Source of the DNA: Gammaproteobacteria bacterium
GTDB taxonomy: Bacteria > Pseudomonadota > Gammaproteobacteria > Steroidobacterales > JABDKV01
Direction of reading: 5' to 3'
DNA: 64,000 bases
Assembly: GCA_029862165.1 (NCBI GenBank)
Contig: JAOTXU010000002.1
Coordinates: forward strand, 62,001-126,000
Shown: positions 7,651 to 39,532 of the stretch, piece after piece
Layout of the letters: the number at the start of each line of letters is the position of its first letter
Numbering within the stretch: the first letter of the stretch is position 1
The notes under the pieces: model-generated
Seen by the model: only the letters and a program-made list of their open reading frames with translations
What the model was told of the DNA's origin: nothing
Database searches by the model: none
Position numbers and translations under genes: made by a program

Positions 7651-7677
7651 TCAAGAAACTGACGGAGTTACCGATAC
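7651..7677 (+). promoter_or_regulatory. Sigma28 (FliA) promoter of fliC
   Basis: TCAAGAAA, an 11-nt spacer, and ACCGATAC match the sigma28 consensus TAAAGTTT-N11-GCCGATAA at spacing and core bases (CCGATA in the -10). It lies about 95 nt before the fliC ATG, a usual distance. FliA encoded at 14313-15044 would be the cognate factor. Confidence 0.8.
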
Positions 7678-14312: not shown

Positions 14313-15044
14313 CTACTCTCGTCTGGTCCATTCGCTCAATCTTGAGCGCAGTCGTATCAATGCCTGGCCATGAATCTGGCATACACGCGATTCGCTGACG
14401 CCCAGAATCTCGCCTATTTCTCGCAGATTCAGCTCATCATCGTAGTAAAGCGACATGACAAGTTTTTCTCGTTCAGGAAGCTGATCGATCTGTAATGCCA
14501 GGTTCTTAATGAAGTCTGATTCCTCCAGCACCTGCAATGGATCCGGATCGGGATTACGCGGTGGATCGTGTGCACCGTCTTCATTGCTGATCTGGTCAAA
14601 GCTACACAGTCGTGCCGCAGCGGCATCACGTAGCGTCTTATGGTATTCGGCCAACGGGATTCCCAGCTCGTTCGCAATATCGCGGTCGCGCGCATCCCGG
14701 CCCGTGCGATTTTCAATCAGACTCATGGCAGCACTCAATTCACGGACCTTGCGGTGTACCGAACGTGGTGTCCAGTCCAGTCGGCGTATTTCGTCCAGCA
14801 TGGCGCCCCTGATTCGTATACCGGCATAGGTTCGGAAATTCGCACCGCCGTCGGGGCTGTAGCTACTTGCGGCTTCGAGTAAACCGATCATGCCGGCCTG
14901 GATCAGATCATCTACATCAACCGAGGGCGGTAACCGACTAACCAGGTGATAGGCGATGCGTTTGACCAACTCGGCGTTTTCCAGGACCAATTCATCACGA
15001 GCGGACGTTTGAACCTCGAGATATTCGCTCGTCGCAGTAGTCAT
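14313..15044 (-). CDS. fliA: RNA polymerase sigma factor FliA (sigma28)
   Basis: FliA directs late flagellar genes such as fliC. The 243-aa protein has region 2 (VDVDDLIQAGMIGLLEAASSY, about residues 40-60), region 3 (PRSVHRKVRELSAAM), and a region 4 helix-turn-helix, NLREIGEILGVSESRVCQIH, for -35 recognition. It overlaps the upstream flhG by 4 nt and is the last well-known gene of the long fliL-initiated unit. Candidate target promoters in the window precede fliC (7651-7677) and the HDOD-GGDEF gene (38296-38322). Confidence 0.98.
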   Translation of the reverse strand: MTTATSEYLEVQTSARDELVLENAELVKRIAYHLVSRLPPSVDVDDLIQAGMIGLLEAASSYSPDGGANFRTYAGIRIRGAMLDEIRRLDWTPRSVHRKVRELSAAMSLIENRTGRDARDRDIANELGIPLAEYHKTLRDAAAARLCSFDQISNEDGAHDPPRNPDPDPLQVLEESDFIKNLALQIDQLPEREKLVMSLYYDDELNLREIGEILGVSESRVCQIHGQALIRLRSRLSEWTRRE

Positions 15045-34450: not shown

Positions 34451-35569
34451 TCAGGCACGTGCACTCACCTGATACTTGCGCATTTTCTCTACCAATGTTG
34501 TGCGTCGCAGGTGGAGCAATCGGGCCGCCTGTGCTACGACTCCGTGTGTCTCACCTAAAGCCTGCCGGATTAGCCGCCTCTCTATCGTGCGTAAGTAATC
34601 CTTAAGGTCGAGGCCGTCCTGAGGGAGGTCCATGGATCGGACGGTCCCTGGCACTGACGGTGGGTCTTGTACTTTCAATGCCATATCTATTTCGGCACTG
34701 TGTTGACTACGATATTTTGCCGGCAGATCTTGCAACTCAATTGTCGAACGGGGGTGAGTAATCGCCAGGCGTTCGATCAGGTTCGCCAGTTCGCGAACAT
34801 TGCCTGGCCACGAGAAACGGGCCAATGATGTCATGGCAGTCCTGGAAAACCTGATTCTTGGGTGTCCGGTGCGGAGGCTTCGATCGGCCATCTGCTCGAT
34901 CAGTTCCGGCAAGTCTTCAATACGGTCGCGTAGTGCCGGCGTATCAATTGGAAATACACTCAGACGATAGTAAAGATCTTCTCTGAATGTACCCTTAGCA
35001 ATGCGTTTTTCCAGGTCGCGATGAGTTGCGGCGATTATGCGCACATTGCATCGCCGAGTCTCATTGCCACCGACTCTTTCAAAGCTGCGTTCCTGTAACA
35101 CACGCAGCAACTTGACCTGCATAGCCAGATCCATGTCGCCGATTTCGTCGAGGAATAGGGTTCCGCCCTCAGCGATCTCAAACCGACCCTTGCGTGCGGT
35201 AATCGCACCGGTGAAGGCGCCTTTTTCATGACCAAACAGCTCGCTCTCGATCAATTCGGCAGGTATCGCGCCGCAGTTGACCGGGACAAAGGGTTTGTCC
35301 GTGCGGGATGAAAGTTCGTGAATATTTCGTGCGACCAGCTCTTTGCCGGTGCCGGATTCACCCAGTATCAATACATTCGTATCGTATCGGGCCACCTGAT
35401 CGATCAATCGATGAACCATCGAGATCAGGGTGGACTGCCCACAAGGACGATAGTGCCCTCCCTGTGGTGAGTTCTGGTCGAGGCACTGCGTGCCTTCCTC
35501 TTTGTATCGGTCCGGTTGTTCGCTACAGTCGGTCGAACGAATACTTAAAGAAGTTTCCTTTGCATGCAT
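34451..35569 (-). CDS. fleQ: FleQ-like sigma54 activator lacking the N-terminal regulatory domain
   Basis: This enhancer-binding protein occupies the position of FleQ/FlrA, directly upstream of fleSR. At 372 aa it is about 110-120 residues shorter than typical FleQ. Only some 45 polar residues precede the AAA+ domain, where FleQ normally has its REC-like domain. The AAA+ part is complete: [14 protein letters not shown] (Walker A), [20 protein letters not shown] (Walker B). It ends with a Fis-type helix-turn-helix ([21 protein letters not shown]). An in-frame stop lies upstream, and the gap to the next gene is too short for the missing domain. The ATG at 35569 has GGAG upstream; 35581 is the alternative. 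Confidence 0.85.
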
Positions 35570-35843
35570 CGACGTCTCCATGTCGTAATCCAGCCCATGA
35601 CAATCCTTAGTCCTAGCCTCATGTTTGACATAAACATGACATTCGCCAAAAACCTATCAGTTGGTGACGGGCTTGCCTGTGATCGTGTTCACATTATTCG
35701 GTTCGTTGAATCAAGATGGACGGTTTTTAGTCACCAGTTACATAGCTGTCGACAAAATCCCGTCCGTCTTTCACGGCGTTATGACAAATGCGAAAACGAT
35801 AGCAAGTTTCGGGATAATCCCTCGAGGGGAACTTTTTCTCTTT
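35570..35843. other. 274-nt regulatory gap upstream of the FleQ-like gene
   Basis: No gene is seen. The stretch lies between the 3' end of an HDOD gene and the FleQ-like start, so it should contain the promoter of the flagellar master regulator. An operator-like inverted repeat is at 35620-35638. I could not find a convincing -35/-10 pair. Confidence 0.6.
35620..35638. promoter_or_regulatory. Inverted repeat (possible operator) upstream of the FleQ-like gene
   Basis: CATGTTT-GACAT-AAACATG is a perfect 7-bp inverted repeat with a 5-nt centre, about 50 nt upstream of the start codon. Its size and spacing fit a dimeric repressor or activator site; the binding protein is unknown. Confidence 0.5.
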
Positions 35844-36695
35844 TCATCCTCGTAGCGCTGCCGCCAGAGCATCGATTTCGTGCTGTGTGTCCTGCCGAAT
35901 GCCTGCGATCTTTTCATCATTGAGGCCCAGACGAGTACAGGCTCTGATGGACCGGAATTCGAATTCTTCGTTTGCAGCTTGAGTGGAAATTACCCACGCC
36001 GTTGTAACCACGTCGGTCAGGTCTGTCGGCCCCATTTTTGTGCGTGCCAAGTCCATGTGATCGGCTGCAGCGTCCGCCATGTCCGTAGAGAAACCCCAGC
36101 CCTCGAGAATGGCTCGGCCGATCTGACCGTGCCAATTTTCGATAACAGATTCGAGCGCTTCTTCGCTATCAAAAAACTCCTCGTGGTCTGCGGCGTACAT
36201 CAGGATGTACAGTTTGCCGACGTTGTGGAGCAGACCCGCCATGAGGGCCTCATCCGGGTTGAGTTTTGTCAGGGTCTTGGCGAGCGCAAAACTCGTTGCC
36301 GCCATCTGGGTCGATTCATGAAACACTTTGCGTAAGCGCTGGCGTTGACCCTTCAATGAGGAGCCAAGAAATAACTGTTCTACAGCCACACTCATCGCGA
36401 CGTTGCGCACCATTTTGAATCCAAGTCGATTAATCGCCGTACGAAGTTCACTGACCTGCTTGCCGCCGCGTTTCAACAGCGCCGAGTTAGCCATTGAAAG
36501 CAGCCGCGCTGCCAGTGCTGCCTCTGTACTGGCGATACGAGTCAGTTTTTCGATATCGCAGTCGTCATCGTCCAGCGCGCGTCTGACGCGAACGATAATG
36601 TCCGGAAAAGAAGGGATTTTGACGTTGCCCTTATTAAGGTCGGCTGCCAAATCCTGTACGAAGGCGAATCCTGCCTGCGCTACCGTGTTGGTCAT
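35844..36695 (-). CDS. HDOD domain protein
   Basis: This 283-aa protein is an HDOD domain (IPSFPDIIVRVRRALDDDDC, LAARLLSMANSALLKRGGK, LRTAINRLGFKMVRNVAMSV) without another recognisable output domain. The HD dyad position reads LLHNVGKLY, so His is kept but Asp is Asn; like most HDOD proteins it is probably a non-catalytic signalling scaffold. It follows an HDOD-GGDEF gene by 9 nt and is likely co-transcribed with it. AGGAGC precedes the ATG. Confidence 0.88.
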   Translation of the reverse strand: MTNTVAQAGFAFVQDLAADLNKGNVKIPSFPDIIVRVRRALDDDDCDIEKLTRIASTEAALAARLLSMANSALLKRGGKQVSELRTAINRLGFKMVRNVAMSVAVEQLFLGSSLKGQRQRLRKVFHESTQMAATSFALAKTLTKLNPDEALMAGLLHNVGKLYILMYAADHEEFFDSEEALESVIENWHGQIGRAILEGWGFSTDMADAAADHMDLARTKMGPTDLTDVVTTAWVISTQAANEEFEFRSIRACTRLGLNDEKIAGIRQDTQHEIDALAAALRG

Positions 36696-36704
36696 TTTTT
36701 GCTC

Positions 36705-38237
36705 CTAGGCATCAGCTATTTCAGGTTCGCGATAATCGCGTTGGGGCGCCTGTGGGACTTTCCCGTCGCTTTGCAGGACATTCCATGACGCATGACCATT
36801 ACGGCCCTGCTGTTTGACCGCATAAACGGCGGTATCGGCGGCGGCAAGCATTTCCTCGACAGATTCGAAGAGGCACCCTCGATCGAGGCTCGCGAGACCC
36901 ATAGATATTGTCACTGCCAATTGCAGGTTGTCGTCCAGGTTATGGACGACGTCGGCGATCTGCGGTGGCATCCGTCGTCCCGCTGCTTGCGCCATCTCAG
37001 TGTCGGTACCGGGCATGATGATGACAAATTCGTCGCCGCCGTAGCGTGTAACAATATCGGAATCCCGCAGGTTATCTTTGAGTGCTTTTGTGATGCCGAT
37101 TAGCAGACGGTCGCCGGCGAGATGGCCATGCGTATCGTTTATTTCCTTGAAACGATCCACATCAATGAATGCAATGCTCAACGGCCAGTTGTTCTCCACC
37201 GATGCCGCAAATTCCTGCTCCAGGAGCGTCATCATGTGCGAGCGGTTAAAGGCGCCAGTGAGTGCATCACGGCGGTTTTTTTCTTCCAGTTCGTTGGTGC
37301 GGTTTTCCGCCGACCGAAGCGCCCGCAGGTTTCTCATCATGAGAATCTCGCGGGCCTGGTCCTGGATGGTCTCGATCTGGCTCACGCCGATTAAATCACT
37401 CTCATACAATGACTCGACGTCCGGCGCCTGTTCACTCAGCCGTACAAGTACCGTACTCAGTTTTTCCACCGACGCGCCGGTCGTCGCCTCGAAACGCTCG
37501 GCGAGATCGGCAGTATCACCATCGCTCGTTGGCGACAGGCAGAAATTGGCTATGGACCCTGAAATTGCCACGCAGGCATCAAAGCCGTCCTCGTGCCTGA
37601 GATCCAAGCGGTGACTTTGCTCCACGGCATTAGCCAGGCGTTGCGGCATATTCCAGCTATTCATCAGCCATCCTCCGACCTCTGCGTGGTCGGCACCTAA
37701 CCGTTCGATCTCAAGCTGCAGCAACGCGTCGTGATCGTAATGATCGGGTGTAGTCTCGCCATAGAAGCCGGGTTCGCACTTATCGATTGCGAGTACGCCG
37801 ATATCCTGTAACAGGCCGGCAAGAAAAATGTCTTCAGTATCTGTGCGGCCGAGCACTTCGCCGGTCACTCTTGCGGCAGTCGCGGACAATAAACAATGGC
37901 GCCAGAATAATGGCAGGCTGATACCCGAAACCTGCTGTTTGCGAAAACCTGAGACCAGTGAAAAACTCAATGCGAGAGTCAGTGTGGCATCCAGACCGAG
38001 TACGATTAGCGCCTTGCGCAGGTTGTCACTGCGCCGACGTTGAGCAAACAAAGCCGAGTTGGCGGTACGCAGGATTTTCGTGGCCAACGCCGGGTCTTTA
38101 CTGATAAATCCGGCGACACTGGTCAAATTGAGGTTTGGGTCTTTGGCGAGGTCGACTATTGCCATGGCAACTCGGGATGGGCTGGGCAGATTCGATACCT
38201 TGGCCAGGCGGCTTTCCAATTCTGGTGGTAGTTTCAC
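36705..38237 (-). CDS. HDOD-GGDEF protein, likely diguanylate cyclase
   Basis: This 510-aa cytoplasmic protein has an N-terminal HDOD domain (about residues 15-215; SPSRVAMAIVDLAKDPNLNL, ILRTANSALFAQRR, LLQDIGVLAID), a linker helix, and a C-terminal GGDEF domain from about residue 325 (RDALTGAFNRSHMM, FIDVDRFKEINDTHGHLAGD, RYGGDEFVIIMPG). The GGDEF active site is intact, and an RDSD inhibitory-site motif lies five residues before it, so c-di-GMP synthesis with product inhibition is expected. The HD position reads QDIG, so the HDOD part is non-catalytic. Translation starts at GTG behind GGAG. A plausible sigma28 promoter lies upstream. Confidence 0.92.
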   Translation of the reverse strand: MKLPPELESRLAKVSNLPSPSRVAMAIVDLAKDPNLNLTSVAGFISKDPALATKILRTANSALFAQRRRSDNLRKALIVLGLDATLTLALSFSLVSGFRKQQVSGISLPLFWRHCLLSATAARVTGEVLGRTDTEDIFLAGLLQDIGVLAIDKCEPGFYGETTPDHYDHDALLQLEIERLGADHAEVGGWLMNSWNMPQRLANAVEQSHRLDLRHEDGFDACVAISGSIANFCLSPTSDGDTADLAERFEATTGASVEKLSTVLVRLSEQAPDVESLYESDLIGVSQIETIQDQAREILMMRNLRALRSAENRTNELEEKNRRDALTGAFNRSHMMTLLEQEFAASVENNWPLSIAFIDVDRFKEINDTHGHLAGDRLLIGITKALKDNLRDSDIVTRYGGDEFVIIMPGTDTEMAQAAGRRMPPQIADVVHNLDDNLQLAVTISMGLASLDRGCLFESVEEMLAAADTAVYAVKQQGRNGHASWNVLQSDGKVPQAPQRDYREPEIADA

Positions 38238-38295
38238 GGTACTCCAAACCTCGATTGCACAGCAGCGAGCCCCGATGATTTCGGGGTTATTCCCT

Positions 38296-38322
38296 GTTTC
38301 GGCAGGTTTCGTCAGCTCTTTA
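38296..38322 (-). promoter_or_regulatory. Candidate sigma28 promoter of the HDOD-GGDEF operon
   Basis: On the minus strand this reads TAAAGAGC, 11 nt, GCCGAAAC, matching TAAAG of the -35 and six of eight bases of the -10 (GCCGATAA) at the exact spacing. It lies about 58 nt before the GTG start, between moeA and this gene. Confidence 0.62.
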
Positions 38323-38341
38323 GCTTAGGATGCCGGGTCGC

Positions 38342-39532
38342 TCACCAGCGCCATAGTGGGGCGCAGTATCCAGCGGGAAACTCGTCTACGTTTGCAGTGA
38401 GCTCGATGAAGCCCGTCGTACTGGCAAGGGCATGGAAATCTCCGGAAGTATTAGGCAGATGCGGTTCGGCAAGCATGCCGGACTCATGATGCCGTAGTGT
38501 TACGGGAACGAACCAGGTCAACCTGTTGTGCATGGTCAGTGGCTCGGCCAGACGCGCTGTCTCAATAGGTGCGCTATAGTCCATCGCGGTTTGTAATGCC
38601 GGCACTACATAGCGCCGCGCGCACACCATTGCGGAGACTGGGTTTCCCGGTAATGCGAATACCATCCGGTCGCGCCTGCGTCCCACCCACATTGGTTTGC
38701 CCGGTTTTTGCGCGACTTTATGCAGGAGTATCTCAACGCCGAGTTCATTCATGATCGACGGTATGTAATCGTACTTGCCCATCGAAACCCCACCCGTCAG
38801 AACGACTATTTCATGCTTTTGCAGCGCCTCTTCGATTCCCGTGCGCAATTGTTCTGGATCGTCTGGGAGTTTGTGGCATGTGTTGTCGTCCAAGCCTGCC
38901 AACCGTAATAATCCATTGATGGCGTAGTCGTTCGATCGTCGAATTTGCGCCGGTCCCGGACGAGTTTCCGGATCGATCAGTTCATCGCCGACTGCAACAG
39001 TCATGATTGACGGGATCGAGGCGACGGTTACCGAGGCGGCACCGGCCGATGCGAGCACCGCTATCTCCGGTCCACCGATGCAGGCGCCCGGCTCAAGCAA
39101 GACATCGCCACTGCAATAGTCGCTACCGGCGGGATGGATGAACTGCGATTTTTGCACAGCGGTTCCGATTTCAAGTTCGGCATATTCTGTGGTTAATCGG
39201 ATTTGCTCCACGGGTATTACACAATCACAGCCTTCTGGCAGCACCGAGCCGGTCATGACCTCGATGCAGTTTCCTGGGTCGGCGAGTACCTGGCGTGATG
39301 AACCGGCGGCCTGAATACCCTGTCGTTGAAAACGCGTGCTGCCACGGACAAACGCATCGTGTGCGATAGCGATGCCATCCATCATGACGCGATCAAACGG
39401 GGGCTGATCTCTGTCGGCCCGGACTTGCTGCGCCAGGATTCTGCCAGCTACATCTGTGAGAGCGGCCTTTTCAGTTTGGCACGCGGGCAGCGCGTCTTTG
39501 ATCCGTTGTGTCGCTTCGACGACACTGATCAT
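38342..39532 (-). CDS. moeA: Molybdopterin molybdenumtransferase MoeA
   Basis: MoeA inserts molybdate into adenylated molybdopterin to make the molybdenum cofactor. The 396-aa length and motifs fit: QPPFDRVMMDGIAIAHDAF near residue 43, EVMTGSVLPEGCDCVIPVEQ at about 91, the MoCF domain motif VVLTGGVSMGKYDYIPSIM at about 247, and FALPGNPVSAMVCARRYV. No other moa/moe/mog genes are in the window. It is 10 nt downstream of a phosphomannose-isomerase-like gene and may be co-transcribed with it. Confidence 0.95.
   Translation of the reverse strand: MISVVEATQRIKDALPACQTEKAALTDVAGRILAQQVRADRDQPPFDRVMMDGIAIAHDAFVRGSTRFQRQGIQAAGSSRQVLADPGNCIEVMTGSVLPEGCDCVIPVEQIRLTTEYAELEIGTAVQKSQFIHPAGSDYCSGDVLLEPGACIGGPEIAVLASAGAASVTVASIPSIMTVAVGDELIDPETRPGPAQIRRSNDYAINGLLRLAGLDDNTCHKLPDDPEQLRTGIEEALQKHEIVVLTGGVSMGKYDYIPSIMNELGVEILLHKVAQKPGKPMWVGRRRDRMVFALPGNPVSAMVCARRYVVPALQTAMDYSAPIETARLAEPLTMHNRLTWFVPVTLRHHESGMLAEPHLPNTSGDFHALASTTGFIELTANVDEFPAGYCAPLWRW

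Follow-up and report, generated by a model that had tools for sequence, protein, structure and literature searches.

Analysis of a 64,000-nucleotide stretch of DNA (the window; C12:62001-126000 of a 3.34 Mb draft genome, labelled G000 among the genomes compared) revealed two consecutive HDOD genes, the first of which also encodes a GGDEF domain with intact cyclase motifs. The pair lies next to flagellar regulator genes and behind a sigma28-type box that recurs in the nearest clade of homologues. Judging from these features, we hold with moderate confidence that HDOD-GGDEF and HDOD2 form a late-class (sigma28) flagellar operon giving a negative-feedback c-di-GMP module.

The minus-strand order is moeA, a 104-base gap, HDOD-GGDEF, 9 bases, HDOD2, 262 bases and a fleQ-like gene, with a fleS-like kinase, a fleR-like regulator, fliE and fliF further downstream (Table 1). 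Gene order and Pfam matches agree with the first-pass annotation, which had described an HDOD-GGDEF gene followed by a second HDOD gene and adjoining flagellar regulator genes. The names fleQ, fleS and fleR are tentative, being based on domains and gene order. The flagellin gene, identified by Pfam, and fliA both lie inside the window, while C12 carries flgA, flgM, flgN and the run motA-motB-PilZ-HDOD3 outside it.

Table 1. Features of the HDOD-GGDEF locus and of related loci (window positions unless a contig or locus is given)
Feature	Position	Strand or orientation	Description
sigma28-type box TAAAG-N14-GCCGAAAC	38296..38322	(-)	recurs among 8/28 homologues, this one included
HDOD-GGDEF gene	36705..38237	(-)	510 aa, GTG start; Pfam HDOD and GGDEF; predicted diguanylate cyclase
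GGDEF domain, residues 323-480 (RxxD 391-394, GGDEF 400-404)	36798..37271	(-)	Pfam and alignment
Linker helix, residues 285-322, HDOD to GGDEF	37272..37385	(-)	AlphaFold2 model
HDOD2	35844..36695	(-)	283 aa, single HDOD domain, 9 bases past cyclase gene
fleQ-like sigma54 activator	34451..35581	(-)	376 aa; Pfam Sigma54_activat
moeA	38342..39532	(-)	Pfam MoeA_N, MoCF_biosynth, MoeA_C; collinear upstream neighbour
fliA (sigma28)	14313..15044	(-)	TIGR02479 and NF005413 FliA, both over cut-off
fliC box TCAAG-N14-ACCGATAC	7651..7677	(+)	in-genome comparison
CBS-CBS-GGDEF gene	L063:14859-15869 (C12:52859-53869)	convergent with HDOD3	outside window
PilZ gene	L063:16867-17514 (C12:54867-55514)		between motB and HDOD3; outside window

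The box reads TAAAG-AGCTGACGAAACCT-GCCGAAAC in full and ends 58 bases ahead of the GTG of the HDOD-GGDEF gene. The distance from TAAA to the GCCGATAA-type element is 15 bases, equal to that in the exact-consensus flgA/flgM box of the same genome, and the TAAAG-N14-GCCGAAAC arrangement with sigma28 spacing claimed earlier was thereby verified. Two of the eight positions of the -10 element deviate from GCCGATAA. As regards membership of the sigma28 regulon, the gene has a candidate promoter of the TAAA-N15-GCCGATAA type with two -10 mismatches, recurrent in the nearest clade. Box scores were computed with our own weights and a general sigma28 consensus, and C at the second -35 position was allowed after the first scan; C is permitted at this position of sigma28 promoters in Pseudomonas. 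The bare pattern TAAA-N14..16-GCCGA is not enriched genome-wide (76 matches vs 109 for the reversed control), so the claim cannot rest on one genome alone. The two strands of the window together hold five boxes with the score of the HDOD-GGDEF box, which puts one in about 0.8% of single-strand 200-base stretches, and with the lack of enrichment this background makes the single site weak, near-chance evidence. Both figures would suit a chance match, yet such an origin is highly improbable, because the box recurs in 7 of the 27 other homologues and in 0 of 274 other starts. It is this recurrence before related genes, not the single match, that makes the site credible.

The recurrence was assessed in 147 related genomes, which yielded 30 loci; two of these (L057 and L058, in G002 and G003) belong to the HDOD3 paralogue and were excluded, leaving 28 homologues, and a second G096 copy (C94, 43%) lies outside the locus set. 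A box was counted when it scored at least 12.2, the score in the window, within 200 bases upstream of the gene start. Eight of the 28 homologues carry one (G000, the window, with G004, G027, G049, G059, G093, G012 and G025), compared with 0/274 control starts once the family members L175, L189 and L192 are removed (3/277 with them). The control set still includes family members and flagellar genes of lower score, and seven further control starts reach 11.9-12.0: a G070 family member, G070 motA, fliC, the G022 fliG start, G001 fleQ, a G022 HDOD-like ORF and the C12:52050 ORF. Fisher p values, which ignore relatedness, are 2e-9 for 8/28 and 2e-7 for the 6/26 with GGDEF intact. A tree built on the HDOD part groups G000, G004, G027 and G049 as one clade (94/88, slightly below the strong-support mark of the tree). 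The box is present in all four, and in two of these the gene lies apart from flagellar genes. The box starts 8 bases after the moeA stop in G004 and 19 in the window, and the rest of the gap aligns poorly. Conservation of the promoter, which had been proposed as a check on the earlier claim, thus holds throughout the nearest clade (4/4) but not in most homologues beyond it: the box is missing at this threshold from 20/28 homologues in the order, including G028, the sister of G059, and is present in 0/6 homologues outside the order. Many of the 20 adjoin fliA and motA/motB-type genes. Sigma28 control of HDOD-GGDEF is accordingly a supported prediction, by comparison, for the nearest clade. The exclusive timing put forward in the first-pass annotation, by which c-di-GMP would be made only once the hook is complete and would signal the time for a choice of lifestyle, is a hypothesis.

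Transcription could instead come mainly from moeA read-through or from another promoter, with the sigma28 box adding a minor late pulse. Since no terminator-like site was found between the collinear moeA and HDOD-GGDEF genes, an observation that we counted against the late-class reading, read-through is possible, and BifA of P. putida is described as having both sigma70 and sigma28 starts (PMC5300878). Against this arrangement, no sigma70-type site was found in 38100-38600, and the box is retained in G027 and G049, where a moeA match was not found nearby; we consider it quite unlikely. Folding of the leader was no better than chance (z -1.46).

Comparison with other boxes of this genome placed the HDOD-GGDEF box high in the ranking. 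In a 140 kb scan, the top hit is an exact TAAAG-N14-GCCGATAA between flgA and flgM (score 13.7), and the HDOD-GGDEF box (12.2) is joint second among intergenic boxes, tied with C12:46050, which precedes a 92-aa ORF; the fliC and C12:51978 boxes come next at 12.0 each. The motA box (TTTAG-N14-GCCGATAT) scores just 11.0, a weakness that we also counted against the late-class reading. G002 and G003 read TTCAG-N14-GCCGATAT at this place, so that a motA box is present in 3/3 genomes read, and the flgM and motA boxes are both conserved across G000, G002 and G003. The chemotaxis stretch C34 holds no strong intergenic box (best 11.9). By our own count the genome contains 30 distinct genes with GGDEF/EAL matches, and the start was reached for 27; two of the 27 have boxes of at least 12.2, namely the window HDOD-GGDEF gene and the GGDEF gene C19:61135 (L222), whose box TCAAG-N14-GCCGATCT (12.2) lies eleven bases ahead of the likely ATG. 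The 15 EAL genes, with the start reached in 14, have a top box score of 11.2. The ORF C12:52050, ahead of the CBS-CBS-GGDEF gene, has a box TAAAG-N14-GACGATAT.

Pfam places the HDOD domain at residues 17-210 of the HDOD-GGDEF protein and 27-214 of HDOD2, and PF08668 matches of 163.4 and 131.2 bits, respectively, assign both to the HDOD family. The GGDEF domain (136.7 bits) contains YGGDEF and the conserved Asp, Lys and Asn positions, with an RxxD inhibitory site five residues ahead of the motif (RDSD-IVTRY-GGDEF); both sites are complete, as the first-pass annotation had stated. Active-site positions are invariant across 17 aligned rows, and RxxD, five residues and GG[DE]EF or SGEEF occur in 26/28 homologues. 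The HDOD-GGDEF protein is a predicted diguanylate cyclase. Its HD dyad reads LLQDIG and that of HDOD2 LLHNVG, so the degenerate QDIG and HNVG reported earlier are correct; QD replaces HD in 17/17 rows, HN of HDOD2 is invariant in 4/4, and both dyads are incomplete. Degenerate dyads are usual in HDOD domains, and for this reason they are not telling; the domain is described as lacking key active-site residues (PMC4114195). No receiver domain was matched by Pfam in either protein, and neither is a response regulator of the GsmR type on this measure. The AlphaFold2 model (pLDDT 82.3, pTM 0.60, domain placement uncertain) shows an HDOD part made up of helices and a single helix that runs into GGDEF. 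Fold matches of the model include WspR and SiaD, and 3hc1 and SadB for HDOD; the solved structures matched include DosC, WspR and PleD among GGDEF proteins and MmoQ among HDOD proteins.

The genome encodes a paralogue, HDOD3 (C12:53881-54843), which is 42% identical to the HDOD-GGDEF protein over residues 7-314 and is the last gene of the motA-motB-PilZ-HDOD3 operon, behind the weak but conserved motA box. What is new here is that this paralogue ends the stator operon with its GGDEF motif missing (three relatives) or the domain absent (this genome). In G002, G003 and G004 it has 483 to 489 aa and a GGDEF-like part without the motif, which Pfam still matches in G002 and G003 (both scanned); in this genome it has 320 aa, lacks GGDEF and adjoins the end of the convergent CBS-GGDEF gene. 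The proteins of G012 and G025 group with HDOD3 (81/86, weak) and bear a strong box, and a GGDEF match was absent from them at E up to 1. Together with the motA boxes, these two genes indicate that sigma28-type boxes go with both the live and the dead branch. The PilZ match takes in residues 103-182 of its protein and begins at profile position 26, while an RQSFR motif is found as early as residues 6-10, a pattern that would fit a domain interrupted by a long insertion.

The death or loss of GGDEF in the paralogue branch was counted against a late-class cyclase. It raises the alternative that the HDOD module, not c-di-GMP, does the work, as in GsmR, SadB and PSPTO_4229, and that GGDEF is an optional addition, lost from some copies: HDOD is retained where GGDEF is dead (HDOD3 of G002, G003 and G004), undetected (G012, G025) or absent (HDOD3 of this genome), and HDOD proteins elsewhere are described as altering motility (GsmR, PMC6543031, PMC11004494; PSPTO_4229, PMC11813219). 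In the live branch, however, the cyclase motifs are intact in 26/26, which argues that GGDEF is in use, and we regard the alternative as somewhat unlikely. More speculative, and in our estimate unlikely, is a pairing of live HDOD-GGDEF with dead- or deleted-GGDEF HDOD3 through their HDOD domains, by which the dead partner would place or restrain c-di-GMP synthesis at the motor. If true, this pairing of a live and a dead cyclase controlled by a single sigma factor would amount to a self-installed brake on the flagellum, opposite in sign to PdeH/BifA. With HDOD constant and GGDEF live, dead or absent, the family offers good ground for probing HDOD function.

Context was read for 19 of the 28 homologues (18 fetched stretches and the window), with genes in other genomes labelled by tblastn matches to the proteins of this genome. 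Eleven of the 19 lie among flagellar genes, three with a box of at least 12.2, and eight (G096, G107, G059, G027, G049, G028, G012 and G025) lie away from them in the stretch read, five with such a box; three of the eight have weak fleR-like matches, which were left uncounted. G004 has the gene order of the window, and G002 and G001 agree up to their contig ends; HDOD-GGDEF is followed by HDOD2 in G004 as well, and in G002 at a contig edge. In G011, G032, G066 and G098 the gene comes after fliA and motA/motB-type genes, heading toward fleQ, and G019 and G093 resemble these four except for the intervening genes. The gene is near fliI in G008 and G022 and near motB in G070. Among the nine unfetched homologues, fliA lies within 4 kb in 7/9 and the box is found in 0/9. 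G107 and G028 have neither flagellar neighbours nor a box of their own, the box of G096 is weaker (11.4), and G130 and G142 were left unassigned in this tally. These counts indicate that most copies adjoin flagellar genes or have their own box. The contigs of the same-genus drafts G002, G001 and G003 (L193, L194, L201) terminate inside or just short of the HDOD locus, so the absence of locus parts there is uninformative.

FliA is found in 27/30 genomes with a hit vs 40/117 others (p = 2e-8), or in 25/28 vs 42/119 without the two paralogue hits; FliA was not called in G004, G093 or G142, and G093 shows a partial match. Any hit is missing from 40 of the 67 FliA-bearing genomes, and the gene is therefore no constant member of the regulon.

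For the late-class operon, we infer FliA dependence in vivo, enzyme activity, HDOD coupling, a PilZ target and the sign of the effect. FliA would be freed when FlgM exits the cell and would transcribe HDOD-GGDEF and HDOD2 alongside flgM, fliC and motA-motB-PilZ-HDOD3. The HDOD-GGDEF protein would act as a diguanylate cyclase that is regulated by its HDOD domain and inhibited by its product at RxxD, and the continuous helix of the model probably relays the state of HDOD to the pair of GGDEF domains. The c-di-GMP made may act through the PilZ protein encoded beside the stator genes and perhaps also the FleQ-like activator, and the outcome would be slower swimming or a closed flagellar cascade once the flagellum exists, that is, negative feedback. 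Building a flagellum may thus also build its own brake.

FliA genes of E. coli are reported to include those for PdeH, a phosphodiesterase, and for YcgR, a PilZ protein (PMC8669469), and in P. putida and P. aeruginosa FliA is reported to raise BifA and lower c-di-GMP (PMC5300878, PMC4866697), a loop described as positive feedback (PMC5026340). Like the window gene, PdeH and BifA are c-di-GMP enzymes linked to the flagellar sigma factor, but they break down c-di-GMP and so favour swimming, whereas the window protein is predicted to make it and bears HDOD. On our best reading the proposed loop is opposite in sign to theirs, and if a sigma28 operon includes a dedicated cyclase, the loop would be inverted and completion of the flagellum linked to later arrest. 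The general kind is not new, because FliA/RpoF-tied GGDEF proteins are known in Legionella and A. caldus: lpp0952 and A5904_0969 are GGDEF genes reported as down in the sigma28 (FliA/RpoF) mutant, as proposed here. Unlike the window protein, lpp0952 combines GGDEF with EAL, and the accounts available for both are without mention of HDOD. In the open-licence literature searched, we found no title or abstract on a sigma28-dependent HDOD-GGDEF protein and no paper containing the string HDOD-GGDEF; as predicted from sequence, the sigma28-linked c-di-GMP control here would be a new variant, of HDOD-GGDEF type.

GsmR of Xanthomonas and SadB and PSPTO_4229 of Pseudomonas share with the window protein an HDOD domain, which where stated has an incomplete HD dyad and no catalytic activity, and have a motility effect. 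GsmR is described as without the conserved His and without phosphatase or phosphodiesterase activity (PMC4114195), and accounts of HDOD present it as still lacking an established mechanism (PMC6543031, PMC11004494). A cited title names GsmR as a response regulator, and SadB contains a YbaK-like domain, whereas the window protein has GGDEF; HDOD2 and PSPTO_4229 are alike in size and architecture alone. Co-regulation of a PilZ gene with the flagellum by FliA is described for flgM-flgN-flgZ (P. putida) and ycgR (E. coli), and unlike these, the PilZ gene here belongs to the stator operon.

The fleQ-like protein has no receiver domain in the Pfam scan, and no NCBIfam model is over cut-off among the matches listed. 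Upstream of its gene, at window 35678-35693, lies a perfect CRP-type palindrome core (TGTGA-N6-TCACA), the sole one in the window. It recurs before the fleQ-like gene in G001, G002 and G004, and C12:235653-235844 codes for a CRP-family protein.
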